Assembly (NCBI RefSeq): GCF_013166655.1
Contig: NZ_JABKCA010000002.1
Coordinates: 62,001-126,000, forward strand
Length of the DNA stretch: 64,000 bases
Direction of reading: 5' to 3'
Source: Lentimicrobium sp. L6
GTDB lineage: Bacteria; Bacteroidota; Bacteroidia; Bacteroidales; UBA12170
Part shown: positions 24,922 to 46,650 of the stretch, piece by piece
Layout: every line of letters begins with the position of its first letter
Position numbering within the stretch: position 1 is the first letter of the stretch
The notes under the pieces: generated by a model
The model's database searches: none
What the model was told of the DNA's origin: nothing
What the model saw: only the letters and a program-made list of their open reading frames with translations
Program-made: the position numbers and the translations under genes

Positions 24922-26358
24922 ATGAGAAAAGAAAAAGATTTTTTAGGTGAAGTAGAAATTGAAGACAAATATCTATATGGAATTCACTCGGTTAGAGCTC
25001 GTCAGAACTTCCCGAATCAAAGCGCTTTCCATCAGGAATGGTACCAGGCAGTTGGTGAAGTAAAACGGGCCTGCTATCAAACTTATAAAAACTTTAAAAA
25101 ATTAGTTTTAAAAGGAATTCCCACTACTGATTTACCTATTCATTTTATGGGAGATTCCTCCATTGAATCTCTGCAAAAAGCAGCTGAAGAAGTTGCTCTG
25201 GGCAAACATTTCGATCACTTTATTATTCCTGCTGTTCAAGGTGGTGCTGGCACTAGTATTAATTTAAATGTAAATGAAATTATTGCCAATAGGGCTTTAC
25301 AAATAATGAATCATCAAACAGGTGATTATTCGACAATTGATCCTATTGAACAAGCTAATATATATCAATCTACCAACGATGTCATTCCAACAGCATTAAA
25401 GGTAAGTCTCATGAAATTGTTGAAAAAATTAGAGGAGGCCATCAATAAAAGTAGGAAAGCAATGGAAGGAGTAGAGAACGAGTTTAGAAGTATTCCTCGC
25501 TTGGGTTATACTCAGCTTCAAGAGGCTGTCCCTTCCACCTATGGTCGTCTTTTCTCTTCTTATAGCGATGCATTGAGTCGTGATTGGTGGAGGGTTAGCA
25601 AATCATGGGAAAGAATTAAAGTTGTAAATTTAGGTGGTGGGGCTATTGGTACTGGGGTATCTGTTCCTCGATATTTTATTATGGAAGTCGTCCAGCAATT
25701 AAAAGATTTAACCAAGCTTCCCATCAGCCGAGGTGAAAACCTCGGAGATGCCACCTCTAATCTTGATTCATATGTGGAGGTGAGTGCTATTCTTAAAGCT
25801 CATGCTGTGAATTTAGAGAAGATGGCAAACGATATGCGCCTCCTAGCTTCAGATATCACTAAGCCTAATTTTAGTATTCCACAACGACAGGTTGGCAGCT
25901 CTATAATGCCCGGAAAAGTGAATCCTGTAATTCCTGAGTTTATCATTTCTAGCATGCATCAAGTTTATTGTAATGATATGTTGATAAGTAATCTATCTGC
26001 AAAAAGTGACTTTGAGCTCAATGCCTATTTACCGTCGATTGGTAATGCTTTATTAGAGAACCTGAAATTATTAATTGCTGCTAATCAGAGTTTAGAGCAA
26101 AACTTGCTTCACGGTATAAAAATTGATACGCAAAACTCGGAGGAGGATTTTTATAAAAGCGCTTCCTTAACTACGGTTTTAAGTCCCTTAATCGGCTATC
26201 ATAAAGCCGCTGAAATGGCAAAATTGATGAAGCAAAAGCAGACCAGTATTTTTCAAGCCAATCAAGAATTGAACTTACTTGGCGAAGAAAAGCTGAAAGA
26301 GATGATGAAACCGGAAAGTTTAACCGCTTTAGGATTCTCCATAAAAGATTTAATGTAA
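24922..26358 (+). CDS. Aspartase-family lyase linked to HydF
   Basis: A 478-residue member of the aspartase/fumarase superfamily. It contains the signature GSSIMPGKVNPV with its flexible loop serine, plus QGGAGTSINLNVNEIIANRA and QSTNDVIPTA. Aspartase subfamily members release ammonia and fumarate from L-aspartate. The gene directly precedes hydF, and lyases of this family are found in hydrogenase-maturation loci of several anaerobes, where ammonia supply for the H-cluster dithiomethylamine bridge is a plausible job. Substrate is inferred; fumarase or another ammonia-lyase activity is not excluded by sequence. Its own promoter lies just upstream. Confidence 0.82.
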   Translation: MRKEKDFLGEVEIEDKYLYGIHSVRARQNFPNQSAFHQEWYQAVGEVKRACYQTYKNFKKLVLKGIPTTDLPIHFMGDSSIESLQKAAEEVALGKHFDHFIIPAVQGGAGTSINLNVNEIIANRALQIMNHQTGDYSTIDPIEQANIYQSTNDVIPTALKVSLMKLLKKLEEAINKSRKAMEGVENEFRSIPRLGYTQLQEAVPSTYGRLFSSYSDALSRDWWRVSKSWERIKVVNLGGGAIGTGVSVPRYFIMEVVQQLKDLTKLPISRGENLGDATSNLDSYVEVSAILKAHAVNLEKMANDMRLLASDITKPNFSIPQRQVGSSIMPGKVNPVIPEFIISSMHQVYCNDMLISNLSAKSDFELNAYLPSIGNALLENLKLLIAANQSLEQNLLHGIKIDTQNSEEDFYKSASLTTVLSPLIGYHKAAEMAKLMKQKQTSIFQANQELNLLGEEKLKEMMKPESLTALGFSIKDLM

Positions 26359-26481: not shown

Positions 26482-27711
26482 ATGTCAAAAGGAAAAGATC
26501 AAAAACCACATATAGGTATTTTCGGAAGAAGAAATAATGGTAAGAGTTCGCTTATTAATTGCTTAGCAGATCAAGATATTGCCATAGTTAGCGATGTAGC
26601 CGGAACGACTACAGATCCAGTTAAGAAATCCATGGAAATTGATGGCATTGGCCCAGTGGTTTTGGTAGATACTGCTGGAATTGATGATACTGGAGATTTA
26701 GGGAAGCAAAGAATAAAGAAAAGTATGCAGACCATTCCCAATATGGATTTGGCTGTGCTTGTGATTACCAATAATGCTTGGGATGCTTTTGAGGAGGATT
26801 TAGTCAATAAATTTCAGAAGAAGGATGTTAATTTTATAGTGGTTCATAATAAAACGGATCAATATCCCATTTCTGATGCATTTTTAAAAGAAACAGAAGC
26901 ACGAGTAGGTGGAAACCTAATCCCATTTAGCTGCTTAAAGGCCGATAATTTGGAACGATTGATAGAAGAAATGCGGAAGAATATTCCAGAATCCGCTTAT
27001 CAATCGAATACCTTAATTGGAGATTTAATTTCGGCTGGTGATACTGTATTATTGGTCACACCTATTGATGATGAAGCTCCAGAAGGGCGTTTGATTCTTC
27101 CTCAAGTTCAGTTGATTAGAGATATTTTGGATAATGATGCTGTGGCAGTAGTATTAAAAGAGCGAGAGCTAGACGAGCACATCAGTAAAATGAGTCCGAA
27201 GCCAGCACTAGTGGTAACAGATAGTCAGGTGTTCTTGAAAGTGGATGGTTCGGTGCCAAATGATATTCCCATGACCAGCTTTAGTATTGTTTTAGCGAGG
27301 CAAAAAGGAAACTTTGAGCATTATTTAAAAGGAACTTATCAGCTCGGTGAATTAAAAGATGGAGATAAGATTCTTCTTTTAGAATCTTGCACCCATCACG
27401 TATCCTGTGATGATATTGGTCGAGTGAAAATCCCTCGCTGGCTCGATCAGTTTAGTGGCAAGAAATTAGAGTATACCGTGGTTTCTGGTTTAGATCAGGT
27501 GCCAGGAGAAATTACAGATTATGCCATTGTCATACAATGTGGAGGTTGTGTCATCACTAAAAAACAAGTTCATAATAGATTAATGCCAGCCATTGAAGCA
27601 GGAGTTCCAGTAACTAATTATGGAATGGCCATAGCTTTTGTGCAAGGCATTTATCATAGGGCTATTCTGCCTTTCACCAAAGAGGATAGGGATAATTCTA
27701 TTTATTTGTAA
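26482..27711 (+). CDS. [FeFe]-hydrogenase maturation GTPase HydF
   Basis: A 409-residue scaffold protein for H-cluster assembly. The GTPase domain (1-175) has G1 GRRNNGKSS, a G2-region threonine in DVAGTTTDP, G3 DTAGIDD and G4 NKTD. The middle part is the dimerisation domain. The C-terminal [4Fe-4S] site is formed by Cys-Thr-His in LLESCTHHVSCDD and, about 50 residues on, CGGC, the CxH...CxxC pattern of HydF. In the pathway HydG makes the Fe(CO)(CN) unit and HydE processes it; HydF hosts the precursor. Neither HydE, HydG nor the hydrogenase is in this window. Confidence 0.95.
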   Translation: MSKGKDQKPHIGIFGRRNNGKSSLINCLADQDIAIVSDVAGTTTDPVKKSMEIDGIGPVVLVDTAGIDDTGDLGKQRIKKSMQTIPNMDLAVLVITNNAWDAFEEDLVNKFQKKDVNFIVVHNKTDQYPISDAFLKETEARVGGNLIPFSCLKADNLERLIEEMRKNIPESAYQSNTLIGDLISAGDTVLLVTPIDDEAPEGRLILPQVQLIRDILDNDAVAVVLKERELDEHISKMSPKPALVVTDSQVFLKVDGSVPNDIPMTSFSIVLARQKGNFEHYLKGTYQLGELKDGDKILLLESCTHHVSCDDIGRVKIPRWLDQFSGKKLEYTVVSGLDQVPGEITDYAIVIQCGGCVITKKQVHNRLMPAIEAGVPVTNYGMAIAFVQGIYHRAILPFTKEDRDNSIYL

Positions 27712-27754: not shown

Positions 27755-27803
27755 TTGATATTACAATATTACGTACATATATTTGTACAAAATATTGTAA
27801 TAT
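27755..27803 (+). promoter_or_regulatory. yefM-yoeB promoter within a 13-bp inverted repeat
   Basis: The arms ATATTACAATATT (27758..27770) and AATATTGTAATAT (27791..27803) are perfectly complementary. Between them is the -7 box TATATTTG (27778..27785), with a TTG at 27755..27757, 20 bases upstream, as the -33 element. The right arm overlaps the antitoxin ATG at 27802. An inner GTACA/TGTAC pair adds a second symmetry. Binding here would block transcription. Confidence 0.75.
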
Positions 27804-28056
27804 GTTAACAGCAACTATATCGGATTTCCGGAAAGACATTAAGAAATATCTTGATCGAGTCACTCAGAATTTTGAAACCCTAATTATTAATAGAGGAAAA
27901 GATAGCGGAGTTGTAGTTTTGTCTTTGGATGAGTATAATGCTTTAACAACGACTCAACATGAAATGTCTTCTGCAAGTAATGAGAAAAGATTAGACGCTG
28001 CCATTCAGAAAATGAAAGTTGGCGATTCTTTTGAAAAAGAAATTCTTGAACCTTGA
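27802..28056 (+). CDS. YefM/Phd-family antitoxin
   Basis: An 84-residue protein beginning MLTATISDFRKDIKKYLDRV, the Phd/YefM fold start, followed by the VVVLSLDEYNAL segment. The tail is charged and probably unstructured until it wraps the toxin. It is followed after 19 bases by the YoeB toxin gene. In this family the antitoxin dimer also represses its own promoter, and the promoter here lies within a matching inverted repeat. Confidence 0.9.
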   Translation: MLTATISDFRKDIKKYLDRVTQNFETLIINRGKDSGVVVLSLDEYNALTTTQHEMSSASNEKRLDAAIQKMKVGDSFEKEILEP

Positions 28057-28075
28057 TTTCCAACATTTATAAACT

Positions 28076-28333
28076 ATGAAGTATATATTTGTTGATGAGT
28101 CATGGGAAGATTATTTATATTGGCAGAAGTATGACAAAAAGAACCTCAAAAAAATAAATGAACTTATAAAGGCAATCGCTCGTCACCCATTTTCTGGCAA
28201 GGGAAAACCAGAACCTTTAAAACATAAGTATAAGGGGTATTGGTCAAGAAGAATTGATGGAGAACACCGATTGATTTATCAAGTAAAGGATGAAGAAATC
28301 AGGATTTTAAAATGCAGATTTCATTACGATTAA
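28076..28333 (+). CDS. YoeB-family mRNA-interferase toxin
   Basis: An 85-residue RelE-superfamily toxin that cleaves mRNA in the ribosomal A site. The family residues are all in place: Glu in GKGKPEPLK (about 46), Arg in EHRLIY (about 65), and the terminal His83-Tyr84 in FHYD. The protein therefore looks active. It forms an operon with the YefM antitoxin gene. Confidence 0.92.
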   Translation: MKYIFVDESWEDYLYWQKYDKKNLKKINELIKAIARHPFSGKGKPEPLKHKYKGYWSRRIDGEHRLIYQVKDEEIRILKCRFHYD

Positions 28334-31546: not shown

Positions 31547-32866
31547 TTGAAACTAAGAAACACACTCTTATTTATTTTAGGGATCATCATCATCTTTGCC
31601 TTGCTCTGGTTTTTTCTGCCTGCTTTAGCGGAGCCTTTCCTTAACTTTTCAATATTACTATTATTAAGTATCTATGTTTGGTCTGCGATTAATGTGAGGG
31701 TAAGAAAACAAGTTCCTATTTTGAAAACCATTTTTGTTTTTTTATTTTGGTTGCCAATGGCATTGGTGGGTATTTCTAGTATTGCCCTCCTCAAGTATAG
31801 TTTAGACGATTGGCCTCCTTTTTTGAAGGTATACTTCATTGGTGGATTATTTACCTATATAGTTTCCCTTCTTTTGCCCATTGTTTTCCTGTTTATTTCT
31901 GATATAGTGAAGTGGATAGAGATGCTTTTTAAAAAGCAGAATGTAAACAGAACAGATAATATAAAAGGGAATGAAGTTACAAGAAGAAAGTTCATAGTTA
32001 ATACAGGATTATCACTTGGTGGTATTGCTCTTGGAACCATGGGATTTGGTATGATTCATGGGAATTATAATTTCAAGATATGGCGTCATCAACTGAAAGT
32101 CTCTAGAGCTTCACAAGCCTTAAAAGGATTAAGAATTGTGCAGATTTCTGATTTCCATTTGGGAACTTGGGTGAGTAAAACGCCTTTAGAGGAGGCTGTT
32201 AAATATATTAATGGCTTACAAGCAGATTTGATTTTCTTCACAGGAGATTTGGTGAATTCTCAAACTGCTGAAGCTTTTCCATTTCAAGAGGAATTGAGCA
32301 AAATGAAAGCAAAATTAGGTGTTTATGCTTCTTTAGGAAATCATGATTACGGTCATTATCATAAATGGGCTGATCAAGCGGAAGAAGAAAAAAACTGGTC
32401 AGATTTATTGGAGTTTTACGAGAATATGGATTGGAAGCTTTTGAGAAATGAAAGTGAAACTTTGGAGATTCAAGGTAGTGTTCTTAATGTGATAGGTGTG
32501 GAGAATTGGAGTAAGAATCCTCGATTTCCTCGCATAGGAGATTTGGATGAAGCCATTAAAAGTAACCCTAATGCGGAGCTCAATTTACTCCTTAGTCACG
32601 ATCCTACCCATTGGAGCGAGATAGTAATTCATTCAGAAACGCCTATAGATATTACTTTCAGTGGACATACCCATGGCTTTCAATTTGGAATAGAATCGAG
32701 CCTTTTTAGATGGAGTCCGGCACAATATGTTTATAAGCATTGGGCAGGAATTTATCAGAATAAGGAATCAGAAATCTATCTAAATGTAAACCGAGGAATT
32801 GGTGCCATCGGCTTCCCAGGCCGTGTTGGAATCAAGCCGGAAATCACTTTGGTTGAAATAGCTTAA
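31547..32866 (+). CDS. Membrane metallophosphoesterase
   Basis: A 439-residue protein. Four hydrophobic segments occupy residues 1-130, with a fifth at about 150-165. The calcineurin-like phosphoesterase domain follows: ISDFHLG (D and H ligands), FTGDL, GNHDYGHYHK, SHDP and FSGHTHG are complete. It resembles the YkuE/YaeI group, which includes enzymes acting on phospholipid headgroups; the adjacent cardiolipin synthase fits a lipid role. The start is TTG at 31547: an in-frame stop lies at 31538 and the next Met is at about residue 72, which would cost two membrane segments. RRKF just before the fifth hydrophobic segment mimics a twin-arginine signal. Confidence 0.85.
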   Translation: MKLRNTLLFILGIIIIFALLWFFLPALAEPFLNFSILLLLSIYVWSAINVRVRKQVPILKTIFVFLFWLPMALVGISSIALLKYSLDDWPPFLKVYFIGGLFTYIVSLLLPIVFLFISDIVKWIEMLFKKQNVNRTDNIKGNEVTRRKFIVNTGLSLGGIALGTMGFGMIHGNYNFKIWRHQLKVSRASQALKGLRIVQISDFHLGTWVSKTPLEEAVKYINGLQADLIFFTGDLVNSQTAEAFPFQEELSKMKAKLGVYASLGNHDYGHYHKWADQAEEEKNWSDLLEFYENMDWKLLRNESETLEIQGSVLNVIGVENWSKNPRFPRIGDLDEAIKSNPNAELNLLLSHDPTHWSEIVIHSETPIDITFSGHTHGFQFGIESSLFRWSPAQYVYKHWAGIYQNKESEIYLNVNRGIGAIGFPGRVGIKPEITLVEIA

Positions 32867-32885
32867 TCTTTGGTTTCTTATCATA

Positions 32886-32934
32886 AGTAATTATACCTAG
32901 GTTCTTTAATGATGGAACTGGTGAGATGACCTAG
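32886..32934 (+). promoter_or_regulatory. Duplicated upstream element, copy 1
   Basis: AGTAATTATACCTAGGT at the left and CTGGTGAGATGACC at the right match the element at 33278..33326. It starts exactly 71 bases before the -7 box of the first small gene. CCTAGGT and ACCTAG give it internal symmetry. Confidence 0.55.
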
Positions 32935-32956
32935 TCTATCATACTAAATCCAATCT

Positions 32957-32964
32957 TATCTTTG
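32957..32964 (+). promoter_or_regulatory. -7 box of small gene 1
   Basis: TATCTTTG, a consensus match, 35 bases before the Shine-Dalgarno-led ATG at 32999. Confidence 0.5.
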
Positions 32965-32998
32965 TATCAGTAATTAATAATATAAATAGGAGGATATT

Positions 32999-33100
32999 AT
33001 GAAAAATTTAATTTTAGAAAACGAAAAATTCTGGTTCGCAATTTATACTGTATTCGTTACACTCATTTTATTAACATTTAACTACTTTGGAGTTCTGTAA
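32999..33100 (+). CDS. 33-residue membrane peptide with strong Shine-Dalgarno
   Basis: The peptide reads MKNLILENEKFWFAIYTVFV, followed by TLILLTFNYFGVL. It is one hydrophobic helix with a charged N-terminus, so probably a single-pass inner-membrane peptide. AGGAGG lies six bases before the ATG, which is rare in this phylum and argues for a real gene. The N-terminal half parallels the second small gene (MK-x-L, N, W, I, TV). A -7 box, an upstream element and a terminator surround it. I do not recognise the family. Confidence 0.65.
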   Translation: MKNLILENEKFWFAIYTVFVTLILLTFNYFGVL

Positions 33101-33113
33101 ACTCAATATATAA

Positions 33114-33145
33114 TACCAAATATGTGGTGAATCATTAGTTTGGTA
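33114..33145 (+). repeat. Inverted repeat after small gene 1
   Basis: TACCAAA (33114) and TTTGGTA (33139) are perfectly complementary across an 18-base spacer. AATACCAAA also follows the second small gene directly after its stop. Confidence 0.4.
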
Positions 33146-33151
33146 CCTCTT

Positions 33152-33184
33152 AAAAGCTCGGAATGAAAATTTCGGGCTTTTTTT
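33152..33184 (+). terminator. Terminator of small gene 1
   Basis: AAAGCTCGGAA and ATTTCGGGCTTT form an imperfect stem, followed by a T run. Confidence 0.65.
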
Positions 33185-33277
33185 AATGACTTTAGTATTG
33201 TTTGTGTGTGATATTAATCCGTTTTATCCTGTTTTGTGATTTTTATAACCCCTCTATCTCTGCCTATGAAGTTTATC

Positions 33278-33326
33278 AGTAATTACACCTAAGTCTAATA
33301 TGCCATAGTAATGGTGAGACCTCCAG
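33278..33326 (+). promoter_or_regulatory. Duplicated upstream element, copy 2
   Basis: AGTAATTACACCTAAGT and TGGTGAGACC match copy 1 at 32886..32934, with one base difference in spacing. It starts exactly 71 bases before the -7-like box at 33349. Confidence 0.55.
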
Positions 33327-33348
33327 TTTTTTAAAGGATAGTAATTCA

Positions 33349-33356
33349 GATATTTG
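33349..33356 (+). promoter_or_regulatory. -7-like box of small gene 2
   Basis: GATATTTG, one base off the TAnnTTTG consensus, 34 bases before the ATG at 33383. Confidence 0.35.
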
Positions 33357-33382
33357 CAGTACAAACAAACAAAGGAGGTGAT

Positions 33383-33517
33383 ATGAAAACGTTAGCAATT
33401 AGTAATCGAGTTTGGGCTATAATAAGCACAGTGGTAATAGCGAAATTATGGATAGTTGGAGCAAGTATGGTAGGAACAATGGCTTTACTTCTCTCCAGAA
33501 ACTACGGCATTATTTAA
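33383..33517 (+). CDS. 44-residue membrane peptide with strong Shine-Dalgarno
   Basis: The peptide starts MKTLAISNRVWAIISTVVIA and ends MALLLSRNYGII, with a hydrophobic middle that probably crosses the membrane once. AAAGGAGGTGAT directly precedes the ATG, nearly the full complement of the 16S rRNA 3' end. The N-terminal part aligns with the first small gene; the C-terminal part is longer. It has its own upstream element, promoter-like box and terminator. I do not recognise it. Confidence 0.65.
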   Translation: MKTLAISNRVWAIISTVVIAKLWIVGASMVGTMALLLSRNYGII

Positions 33518-33649
33518 TACCAAACACTTCATGCCAACCATAATTATTAAACGAGCAATAAACCATATTATAATTAAATCTACCAAGATTTAATCCTCAG
33601 AATTATCGAGAGAATGACATACATTATTTATTTCGAAATGCGATGAAGT

Positions 33650-33679
33650 AAGGCCTGGAATTTTTTCTTGGCCTTTTTT
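33650..33679 (+). terminator. Terminator of small gene 2
   Basis: AAGGCC and GGCCTT pair around an AT-rich loop and are followed by TTTT. It lies about 130 bases after the stop, with no other gene between. Confidence 0.6.
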
Positions 33680-33790
33680 AGTGTATTATAATTCCTATTG
33701 CTAATAGGAATTAAACTCTAACTAGGCTTTTTATCTTTTATAATTTTATCTTCTCATGCTTTTTCCGACATTTGTAAAAATTCCGATTTT

Positions 33791-34225
33791 ATGTTCACCG
33801 ATGAATATTATATGAAAATGGCTTTTCAACAAGCCCAATTGGCTTTTGATAAGGATGAAGTGCCTGTTGGTGCTATCATTGTCTTCAGAGACCGAGTGAT
33901 TGCAAAAGCCCATAACCTTACCGAAACTCTAAACGATGTCACTGCCCATGCCGAGATGCAAGCCATCACTGCTGCGGCAAATACTTTGGGTGGGAAGTAT
34001 TTAAATGAGTGTAGCCTCTATGTAACCTTGGAACCATGTGTGATGTGTGCTGGAGGTTCCGCTTGGGCACAAATGGGGAAAGTGGTTTTTGGCGCCTATG
34101 ACCAAAAGAAAGGTTTTTCTAAGTATCAAGAATCCATTCTTCATCCCAAAACAGAAGTGATAGGAGGTGTGATGGAATTGGAGTGTGGACAATTGATGAC
34201 AGAATTTTTCAGCAAAAAAAGATAG
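33791..34225 (+). CDS. tRNA adenosine deaminase
   Basis: A 144-residue zinc deaminase that converts A34 to inosine in tRNA-Arg. His53-Ala-Glu55 supplies the ligand and catalytic Glu, and PCVMC (Cys83, Cys86) completes the zinc site. Length and TAHAEMQAI fit TadA rather than cytidine or guanine deaminases. The next gene starts one base after the stop. Confidence 0.9.
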   Translation: MFTDEYYMKMAFQQAQLAFDKDEVPVGAIIVFRDRVIAKAHNLTETLNDVTAHAEMQAITAAANTLGGKYLNECSLYVTLEPCVMCAGGSAWAQMGKVVFGAYDQKKGFSKYQESILHPKTEVIGGVMELECGQLMTEFFSKKR

Positions 34226-44325: not shown

Positions 44326-46650
44326 ATGAGAAAGTATTTGATCCTCCTTGGTATTCTATTAATGGCATTTCAGCTTTCTGCTCAAAAATTTACCATCAGT
44401 GGTAAAGTGAAAGATGCTGCCAATGGTGAAGAACTAATAGGAGCCACTATATTTATTAAAGGCCTAAAAACAGGAACGGTGACCAATGAATATGGTTATT
44501 TTTCTTTGAGTCTTGATAAAGACGATTACGAGATAGAAATCAATTATCTGGGTTTTGAAGCCATTCTTCAGAAAGTAGTTTTAGATAAAGACCATTACTT
44601 TACTTTTGAATTAGCAGAATCCTCTTCCGATTTGCAAGAAGTGGAAGTAACAGGTGAAAGAATAGATCGCAATGTCAAAAGCAACGAAATGAGCAATGTG
44701 AAGCTCCAATCCAAAACCATTAAAAAAATCCCTGCCTTTATGGGAGAAGTGGATTTGGTGAAAGTGATACAATTGCTTCCTGGTGTTCAAAGCACATCCG
44801 AAGGATCCTCAGGATTTAGTGTGAGAGGAGGTTCTCCTGATCAAAACCTTATTCTATTGGATGAAGCTACCGTTTATAATGCCTCTCACTTAATGGGCTT
44901 TTTCTCGGTGTTTAATAATGATGCTATTAAAGATGTGAAAATCTATAAAGGCGATATTCCAGCTGCACATGGTGGGAGACTATCATCCCTTTTAGATGTG
45001 AGAATGCGAGATGGTAATAGTAAGAAAATATCTGTCACTGGTGGAATTGGTAGTATTTCGAGTCGATTGACTATAGAAGGGCCTATAGTGAAAGACAAGA
45101 CTACTTTCCTAGTTTCTGGACGAAGAACCTATGCGGACCTTTTTCTTAGACTCAGCTCTAATGAAGACCTTAAAAACAATATCCTTAACTTTTATGATTT
45201 AAATGCTAAGGTGAATCATACCTTCAATAAGAAGAATCGATTATATCTTTCTTTCTATATGGGTCAGGATAAATTCGCCAACGATTTTGCAAAATTATAT
45301 TTCGGAAATAGAACTTCCACCATACGTTGGAATCATTTATTTAGTGATAAACTCTTCTTTAATTTCACTTTCACCAATAGTGTGTATAATTATAATTTGG
45401 GAACTCCAGAAGGCAACCCCAATGCTTTCGATTGGAAAAGTAGAATGACAGATTATGGGGTAAGAGGAGATTTTACCTATTTCTTGAATCCTCAAAATAC
45501 TGTAAAATTTGGCTTAGAAGGCACCTATCATATTTTTGAACCTGGTAGTGCTAAAGGATTGGGTGAGGAGGCTTTGTTTACTGAATTTGTTCAACCCAAG
45601 AATTATGCGCTGGATTATGCATTCTATATCTCTAATGAACAGAAGATTGGCGAGAGAATACAGTTGAAATATGGATTGAGACTCTCTGTTTTTCAGAATA
45701 TTGGTCCTGGAACTATTTATAATTTTGATGATAATTATGATAAAATCGATTCTACAGTTTATCCTAAAGGAGAAATATTTAATACCTATATGGGTTTAGA
45801 ACCACGCTTCGGAATTTCTTATTTGCTCAACGATTATTCCAGTATAAAAGTCAATTATTCCCGTACTCGTCAATCTATGCAATTGGCACAAAATTCCACA
45901 GCCGGAACTCCTTTGGATATTTGGTTTCCTGCTTCACCTAATGTGAAACCTCAAATTGCTGATCAAGTGGCATTGGGGTATTTTAGAAATTTCAATGAAA
46001 ATGCAGTTGAAACCAGCGTGGAGGTTTATTATAAAAACATGAAAAATGCCATCGATTTTAAAGACTTTGCTGAAGTCTTATTAAACGAGCAACTGGAAGG
46101 TGAACTGAGATTTGGGAAAGCCTGGAGTTATGGAATTGAATTTCTCATCAGAAAAAATGTAGGTAAGTTAACGGGTTGGATAAGTTATACCTATAGCAAG
46201 ACTGAGCGTAGATTTGAAGATATTAATAGAGGAAATGTATATCCCGCTCCTTATGATAAACCCCATGATGTTTCTATTGTAATGAGTTATGGGCTTAACG
46301 AGAGATTGGATTTATCAGCCAATTGGGTTTATGCCACCGGACAACCAGCAACATTTCCAACCGGAAGAGCCCATTATGGAAATACAATAGTCCCTATTTA
46401 TTCTGATAGAAATGCCTATAGAATGCGAGATTATCACCGTCTAGATGTTTCTGCCACATGGAGGAAGAAGCAAAAGGAAGGTTCCAAGTTTGATTGGGAT
46501 ATTAACCTTTCTGTTTATAATGCCTATGCTCGACATAATACTTGGTCAATCAACTTTATTCAAGATGAAAATGATCCCAATGTGACCTATGCAGAACAGA
46601 CTTATCTCTTTAGTATTATTCCAGCATTGACCTTTAATTTCAAATTTTAA
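44326..46650 (+). CDS. TonB-dependent receptor with CarboxypepD_reg domain
   Basis: A 774-residue outer-membrane receptor. A signal peptide (1-20) is followed by a carboxypeptidase-regulatory-like domain (about 22-105), a plug (about 115-225; SSGFSVRGGSPDQNLILLD) and a 22-stranded barrel ending in ALTFNFKF. It takes up a substrate using TonB energy. It pairs with the DUF4249 lipoprotein four bases downstream. It has its own promoter 190 bases after the mod operon. Its cargo is unknown, and the molybdate neighbourhood is suggestive only. Confidence 0.9.
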   Translation: MRKYLILLGILLMAFQLSAQKFTISGKVKDAANGEELIGATIFIKGLKTGTVTNEYGYFSLSLDKDDYEIEINYLGFEAILQKVVLDKDHYFTFELAESSSDLQEVEVTGERIDRNVKSNEMSNVKLQSKTIKKIPAFMGEVDLVKVIQLLPGVQSTSEGSSGFSVRGGSPDQNLILLDEATVYNASHLMGFFSVFNNDAIKDVKIYKGDIPAAHGGRLSSLLDVRMRDGNSKKISVTGGIGSISSRLTIEGPIVKDKTTFLVSGRRTYADLFLRLSSNEDLKNNILNFYDLNAKVNHTFNKKNRLYLSFYMGQDKFANDFAKLYFGNRTSTIRWNHLFSDKLFFNFTFTNSVYNYNLGTPEGNPNAFDWKSRMTDYGVRGDFTYFLNPQNTVKFGLEGTYHIFEPGSAKGLGEEALFTEFVQPKNYALDYAFYISNEQKIGERIQLKYGLRLSVFQNIGPGTIYNFDDNYDKIDSTVYPKGEIFNTYMGLEPRFGISYLLNDYSSIKVNYSRTRQSMQLAQNSTAGTPLDIWFPASPNVKPQIADQVALGYFRNFNENAVETSVEVYYKNMKNAIDFKDFAEVLLNEQLEGELRFGKAWSYGIEFLIRKNVGKLTGWISYTYSKTERRFEDINRGNVYPAPYDKPHDVSIVMSYGLNERLDLSANWVYATGQPATFPTGRAHYGNTIVPIYSDRNAYRMRDYHRLDVSATWRKKQKEGSKFDWDINLSVYNAYARHNTWSINFIQDENDPNVTYAEQTYLFSIIPALTFNFKF

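Follow-up and report, generated by a model that had tools for sequence, protein, structure and literature searches.

Two orphan genes for putative single-helix membrane microproteins in Lentimicrobium sp. L6 share an upstream site at a fixed distance from the -7 box

The stretch of DNA analyzed here (the window; 64,000 nt of Lentimicrobium sp. L6, contig NZ_JABKCA010000002.1) carries two very small genes, P1 and P2, in the 924-bp gap between a metallophosphoesterase gene (31547-32866) and a gene for a TadA-like deaminase (33791-34225), in the order phosphoesterase, P1, P2, TadA. Their features are collected in Table 1. The pair had been picked out from the letters of the window alone, as two peptides of 33 and 44 residues with one hydrophobic helix each, and both the ORF coordinates and the structure predictions agree with that description. 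Very short genes are readily overlooked, and a literature search found no publication on either peptide or on the element upstream of them.

Table 1. Features of the P1 and P2 genes (window positions; G003 is a second genome of the genus)
Feature	Position	Strand	Remarks
Gene 1 distal upstream element AGTAATTATACCTAGGT, core CYTARG at offsets 10-15	32886-32902	+	Direct reading; 71 bases before -7 box
Gene 1 proximal segment, TGGTGAGA then TGACCTAG	32919-32934	+	TGACCTAG kept in G003 P1, TGGTGAGA not
Gene 1 -7 box TATCTTTG, fits TAnnTTTG	32957-32964	+	Identical in G003
Gene 1 Shine-Dalgarno AGGAGG	32988-32993	+	Kept in G003; -10.2 kcal/mol
Gene 1 (P1), putative 33-aa single-helix membrane peptide	32999-33100	+	G003 ortholog 76% identical; predicted helix
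Gene 1 conserved 3′ UTR	33127-33184	+	53/58 bases identical in G003
CCTCTT in gene 1 3′ UTR, predicted to pair with SD	33146-33151	+	Fold prediction
Gene 1 terminator	33153-33184	+	Hairpin, also present in G003
Gene 2 distal upstream element AGTAATTACACCTAAGT	33278-33294	+	71 bases before -7 box; G003 P2 in same register (L041:3279)
Gene 2 TGGTGAGA; G003 P2 has TGGTGAAA	33312-33319	+	One base out of register versus gene 1
Gene 2 -7-like box GATATTTG, one mismatch to TAnnTTTG	33349-33356	+	Identical in G003
Gene 2 extended Shine-Dalgarno AAAGGAGGTGAT	33371-33382	+	11 consecutive pairs with presumed 16S tail, -17.8 kcal/mol
Gene 2 (P2), putative 44-aa single-helix membrane peptide	33383-33517	+	G003 ortholog 82% identical; predicted helix
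Gene 2 3′ UTR hairpin, 9-bp stem, 4-nt loop	33573-33594	+	Present in both species
Gene 2 intrinsic terminator	33650-33679	+	Hairpin, also present in G003

Among ten sampled genomes of the same genus, one (G003) possesses the block phosphoesterase, P1, P2, TadA in the same order and place. Its gap between phosphoesterase and TadA is wider than that of the window (1532 bp versus 924 bp); in the 600 bp of the G003 gap that precede P1, no further peptide similar to P1 or P2 was found. Comparison of the window and G003 copies gave dN 0.129 and dS 1.00 for P1 (dN/dS ~0.13) and dN 0.104 and dS 1.80 for P2 (dN/dS ~0.06), values that derive from two species with dS near saturation. Differences were distributed over the three codon positions as 7/1/12 in P1 and 6/2/22 in P2; that is, 12 of 20 and 22 of 30, respectively, fell at third positions. 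As far as two species can tell, the substitutions are distributed as expected for a coding sequence under selection, and the codon-position differences together with the dN/dS values rule out chance ORFs. The sequence-only reading had made its case dependent on conservation in close relatives, and G003 was found to keep the frames, the AGGAGG and the upstream element. Since the carriers are two species only, all of the conservation of P1 and P2 reflects a single divergence.

The predicted structure of each peptide consists of one long hydrophobic helix (pLDDT 92.5 for P1 and 87.6 for P2). Across five peptides the best 19-residue hydropathy was 1.93-2.16, and the predicted helices of P1 and P2 are long enough for a membrane span; from these models we infer that P1 and P2 insert into the membrane. 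Neither P1, P2 nor the third peptide described below gave a match below E 0.1 in scans of Pfam, NCBIfam, PADLOC (a defense-system library) and PHROGs. No homolog of P1 was found in the viral_contigs or phages collections, and none of P2 in the viral_contigs or plasmids collections.

P1 and P2 each scored below E 1e-10 in two of 41 genomes (the window's own, ten of the genus and thirty of the order), several of the genus genomes being only 74-86% complete. When 295 genomes of the order were searched, a sample that does not contain G003, the P1 profile fell below 1e-3 only in the window's own genome (G000), the next best match having an E of 0.0027. A P2 profile match in G012 from the same search (E 1.8e-4) falls within an ORF of 494 aa whose product looks soluble by eye and was dismissed as chance, and nucleotide matches at L042, L044 and L045 proved to be AT-rich stretches at the starts of other genes. 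TadA itself is present in eight of the 11 genus genomes. In G002, the one further genome of the genus in which the two flanking genes were seen side by side, it follows the phosphoesterase after 110 bp with no peptide between, and the P1-P2 pair would therefore be either a lineage-specific insertion or a loss in G002. In the five TadA-bearing genomes besides G000, G003 and G002, other genes lie within the 520 bases upstream of TadA, and no AGGAGG-led ORF was found in those bases. As judged from these searches, P1 and P2 occur in just one sub-lineage of a single Bacteroidales genus.

A third gene occurs in G003 as a 36-aa ORF (L043:1409-1519) that is unlinked to P1-P2. Judged by global alignment of the peptides (shuffle z 9.4-9.5), it is clearly a homolog of P1; no Shine-Dalgarno sequence (SD) and no terminator of its own are visible. 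The ortholog of its neighbor was sought in G000, where only a 31%-identical, pyruvate-kinase-like match was obtained, and because this ortholog was not found the third copy is apparently missing from G000 or from its assembly. The mutual similarity of P1 and P2 is marginal by the same kind of comparison. Global shuffle p was 0.001 for the window pair and 0.0095 and 0.0175 for two other tested pairs (z range 2.8 to 4.7), local shuffle p was 0.0075, 0.043 and 0.07, and the hhalign probability was 0.4%. Between P2 and the third peptide no global similarity was detected (p 0.92 and 0.30; local p 0.036 and 0.057), and what links P2 to the family would therefore be mainly the promoter rather than the peptide. 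The kinship that related N-termini had suggested for P1 and P2 is weaker than claimed earlier. The description of the region as a duplicated locus suits the promoters, while the kinship of the two peptides is marginal and the clear homolog of P1 is the third G003 gene.

For both window promoters, an exact distance of 71 bases had been proposed from the start of the upstream element to the -7 box (32886/32957 and 33278/33349). Counted on the sequence, the same distance separates the two in both G003 orthologs (L041, 2899/2970 and 3279/3350) and in the third gene (L043, 1308/1379), and hence in five of five promoters, across which the core CYTARG is kept. Register was measured as the ungapped similarity of 150 upstream bases at 151 relative offsets. 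The element match between window genes 1 and 2 was the best of the 151 offsets (score 14), and in 2000 dinucleotide shuffles the observed score was never reached at offsets -1 to +1, either for this pair or for G003 gene 1 against the third gene. Among eight between-gene promoter pairs, offset 0 was the sole best in four (window genes 1 and 2, score 14; window gene 1 and third gene, 10; G003 gene 1 and third gene, 19; window gene 2 and third gene, 10), tied best in one (window gene 1 and G003 gene 2), and not best in three. The segment score of 19 for G003 P1 against the third gene was followed by a next best of 7.

Other parts of the promoters are less uniform. A second block named by the sequence-only reading, TGGTGAGA, does occur in both window copies; it starts at offset 33 in gene 1 and at offset 34 in gene 2, one base out of register, and is absent from G003 P1 and from the third gene. 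The -7 box attributed to gene 1 fits the expected motif, and that of gene 2 departs from it by one base. The available part of PMC7366714 gives the promoter consensus as a -33/-7 type with TAnnTTTG at -7. Three of the five promoters lack both TTTG and TTG throughout the 34 bases that precede the -7 box. Of the other two, G003 gene 1 carries a TTG 31 bases before the box, and the TTTGs of the third gene lie just 13 and 7 bases before it. Since, by the same portion of that paper, no -33 motif was found in F. johnsoniae either (PMC7366714), the missing motif in P1/P2-type promoters says little.

A sequence-only model of the five promoters was run on the 11 genus genomes, with 150 first-look candidates scored per genome. 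At E <= 10 it returned 110 matches, of which five were the training sites (49-58 bits). Ten of the remaining 105 were examined in sequence, and among the ten no unrelated gene was seen carrying the site. Eight were set aside: L119 lies in a long ORF, and L118, L120, L121 and L123-L126 are partial matches, lie inside longer ORFs or have no gene-start context. At L122:1080-1154 (G000:C75; E 0.38) an intergenic ACTTAGG and GATATTTG stand at the same spacing of 71; no ORF was found behind the site, it was sole best offset in none of five register tests, and it is likelier to be a chance match. The best non-training match, L117 in G003, is of full length (19.2 bits, E 0.009 for that genome) and is suggestive only, because 11 genomes were searched. 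A -7-like box closes the match, again at a distance of 71, and in register tests offset 0 was the lone peak with two of the five promoters (third gene and window gene 2). No ORF was found downstream; a stretch of 21 bases there matches the start of the third gene at 81% identity and is followed by a hairpin and a T run. Because of this downstream resemblance, L117 is read as probably a decayed copy of the third peptide gene, complete with promoter element and terminator. The probable relic (L117:1870-2060; G003:C79) is divergent from a gene that by eye encodes a CocE-like hydrolase.

An element common to several promoters at a fixed distance points to a common activator. The conserved spacing had been taken earlier to suggest the same, and the register now counted in five promoters points likewise; on the sequences compared, the constant distance of the element from the -7 box is most likely due to such an activator. 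The distance could also be inherited rather than required, because whole units may have been copied, and the shared element would then be functionless, a leftover similarity from copied promoter-gene units. Such copying is suggested by the third gene and the probable relic, and three of the eight between-gene pairs do not peak at offset 0. However, the core is kept between paralogs with diverged spacers and between species, and the 71 bp have undergone no net insertion or deletion; we regard leftover similarity as unlikely.

Ribosomes of this class mostly ignore Shine-Dalgarno sequences. AGGAGG is nonetheless kept in all four copies of P1 and P2 (window and G003), whereas a survey of the 20 bases before the first ATG found it in none of 48 window ORFs (110 aa or longer, largely non-overlapping); the first ATG was taken as the start, which will be wrong for some. 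The longest SD-like match in that survey was AAAGGA. The earlier remark that genes of this phylum normally lack strong SDs agrees with the survey. Pairing energies were calculated with a 13-base 16S tail that we presume for this genome; the tail is an assumption, because no 16S gene was found in the 11 genus genomes. With this tail, G003 P1 pairs at -12.2 kcal/mol, G003 P2 at -12.6 kcal/mol with a mismatch inside the helix, and the third gene at -0.6 kcal/mol, so that, including the window copies (Table 1), pairing falls below about -13 kcal/mol in one of the four P1/P2 copies, window P2.

G000 as a whole contains 384 instances of AGGAGG with an ATG 3-8 bases behind it, versus 306 of the reversed pattern. 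Six of the first 30 such sites stand at plausible gene starts, which are those of P1, P2 and, by eye, of hpf-like, cydB-like, BatA-like and lipoprotein genes. Strong SDs are accordingly rare here and not restricted to the peptides, because AGGAGG also precedes the hpf-like, cydB-like and other genes. The cydB-like gene, by eye for a cytochrome bd subunit II-like protein, lies in L154 (G000:C4, about 26323-26339), the BatA-like gene in L136 and the lipoprotein gene in L153. A run of rpsU, an xerC-like gene and the hpf-like gene (the latter two by eye) occupies L127:1490-3022 (G000:C1, about 44960-46500), and its strong SD, AAAAAAGGAGG (-13.4 kcal/mol), precedes the hpf-like gene and not rpsU. 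In G000, rpsU pairs at -10.1 kcal/mol, with an interruption, and rpsR at +1.6 kcal/mol.

According to the available sections of PMC9976891, the anti-SD is masked by bS21, bS18 and bS6, which matches the background about masking by proteins including bS21 that accompanied the original observation. The same sections give ranges for extended SDs of -14 to -21 kcal/mol for rpsU and -7 to -14 kcal/mol for rpsR, and for rpsU a rise of 3-fold or more under ribosome-composition control is published there (PMC9976891). Translation of P1 and P2 might be gated by bS21-lacking ribosomes that alone expose the anti-SD, the two genes being part of a strong-SD regulon. Window P2 resembles rpsU (bS21) control in Bacteroidota in having an 11-bp extended SD, with an energy inside the rpsU range and outside the rpsR range as given in that part of the paper (PMC9976891), and the AGGAGG of all four copies is consistent with this. 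Unlike rpsU, P2 is not a ribosomal gene, and its extension is not conserved in G003; the P1 copies and the third gene pair more weakly still. In G000 neither rpsU nor rpsR has an extended SD, and the published autoregulatory loop, as far as the available text describes it, is not seen here. As the G003 P2 extension is interrupted and other genes carry AGGAGG at gene-start-like positions, bS21-linked control of P1 and P2 is only suggestive on this comparison, in which the 16S tail is assumed, and we consider it improbable. A broader version, in which P1 and P2 would belong to a dispersed microprotein regulon with the activator site copied per unit and with SDs of the rpsU class, translated mainly by bS21-lacking ribosomes, strikes us as very improbable. 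If it were true, the regulon would be a non-ribosomal output of specialized ribosomes that couples ribosome state to the membrane.

Both genes had also been said to end alike. Their terminators are present in G003 as well; AATACCAAA follows both genes in the window and neither G003 ortholog, and belongs with the peptide likeness and the register of TGGTGAGA to the weaker parts of an observation of which the genes, the SDs and the 71-base spacing stand. Fold predictions for the P1 mRNA pair its SD with the CCUCU that immediately precedes the terminator; the MFE and centroid structures of both species show this, as does the consensus fold. Mean SD pairing was 0.97 in the window and 0.78 in G003 versus shuffle means of 0.70 and 0.62, and was matched by 4 of 100 mononucleotide shuffles in the window and by 22 of 100 in G003; the window value for this predicted pairing is suggestive, the G003 value not significant. 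For P2, SD pairing was not in excess of shuffles (0.63 vs. 0.64; 0.67 vs. 0.64).

These folds bear on the idea that the peptides are type I toxin-like, with a full-length mRNA that would stay silent while its SD is base-paired to a distant 3′ anti-SD, until processing or a signal frees it. The size of the peptides, their single helix, the strong SDs, the tandem arrangement and the pairing predicted for P1 in both species would all suit such toxins. The available part of PMC6733600 describes a long-distance interaction in AapA-type toxin mRNAs of Helicobacter to which the P1 fold-back is similar; P1 has in common with those mRNAs a short hydrophobic ORF, a strong SD and a predicted 5′-3′ SD/anti-SD closure. 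For B. thetaiotaomicron, the available part of PMC7366714 reports seven antisense pairs that resemble type I systems. However, P2 lacks the closure, in G003 the closure does not exceed shuffles, no SD precedes the third gene, and there was no match in PADLOC, though that library is one of defense systems. Nor was a promoter detected for an antisense antitoxin in a search that covered TAnnTTTG boxes on the minus strand: none lies in 32860-33800 or in L041:2290-3840, a result compatible with a weaker promoter or a trans-acting antitoxin. We doubt that P1 and P2 are toxins of this type.

The 3′ regions could alternatively have a role of their own, the transcripts being dual-function and the conserved 3′ UTRs acting as small regulatory RNAs. 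Whole transcripts folded no better or barely better than shuffles (z -1.8 and -2.1 for P1; -1.0 and -1.4 for P2). The P2 3′ UTR alone, terminator included, folded better (z -4.1 in the window, -2.9 in G003), and its hairpin keeps one pair by a two-sided and one by a one-sided change between the species. The 3′ block of P1 (53/58 identical) is also better conserved than the coding region (80%). These fold and block scores are inflated, because terminators are included, and they come from two sequences only. Rfam gave no match in the window at gathering scores, two weak matches there in permissive mode (E 0.26 and 0.51), and none in G003. We consider a regulatory RNA function improbable. The P2 3′ UTR (33518-33649) extends for about 130 bases before the terminator and keeps TTTATTTCGAAATGC exactly in G003.

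We therefore favor, with a probability of roughly 0.6, a reading in which P1 and P2 encode putative single-helix inner-membrane microproteins, each with its own promoter and terminator, under a shared activator acting at the 71-bp site, in units that were spread by copying. P1 and P2 would each be transcribed singly, as a unit closed by its own terminator, and the recognizable parts of the promoter would be the -7 box and the upstream CYTARG site exactly 71 bp before it. A shared DNA-binding activator would bind the CYTARG site and recruit RNA polymerase, and both genes would therefore be switched on together by one signal. Copying of units would account for the P1-homologous third G003 gene with its identical promoter layout. 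Once made, the peptides would insert into the inner membrane and may modulate a process in that membrane or a larger protein located there, while the strong SD would allow high translation per mRNA during the response.

TisB, DinQ, AcrZ and MgrB are examples of stand-alone single-helix bacterial membrane microproteins. Like these, P1 and P2 combine a length of 30-50 aa, one hydrophobic helix, their own promoter and terminator, a strong SD and a narrow distribution; unlike them, they have a Bacteroidales-type promoter, and the copies share an upstream site at fixed spacing. On the sequence comparisons above, P1 and P2 are real orphan genes for putative single-helix microproteins that share one promoter site. 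In B. thetaiotaomicron, 409 very short genes were predicted, seven of them with ribosome-profiling support, according to the available part of PMC7366714; P1 and P2 bring evidence of selection, a promoter pair with a common site, and strong SDs. They would be good reporters for finding the activator and for testing whether ribosome composition also affects strong-SD mRNAs besides that of rpsU.

Two further groups of genes were noted at lower window coordinates. A 409-aa GTPase ORF (26482-27711), by eye HydF-like (a hydrogenase maturation protein), adjoins an aspartate ammonia-lyase-like gene (24922-26358), and two adjoining small ORFs of 84 and 85 aa at 27802-28333 resemble, by eye, a toxin-antitoxin pair of the YefM/YoeB type.
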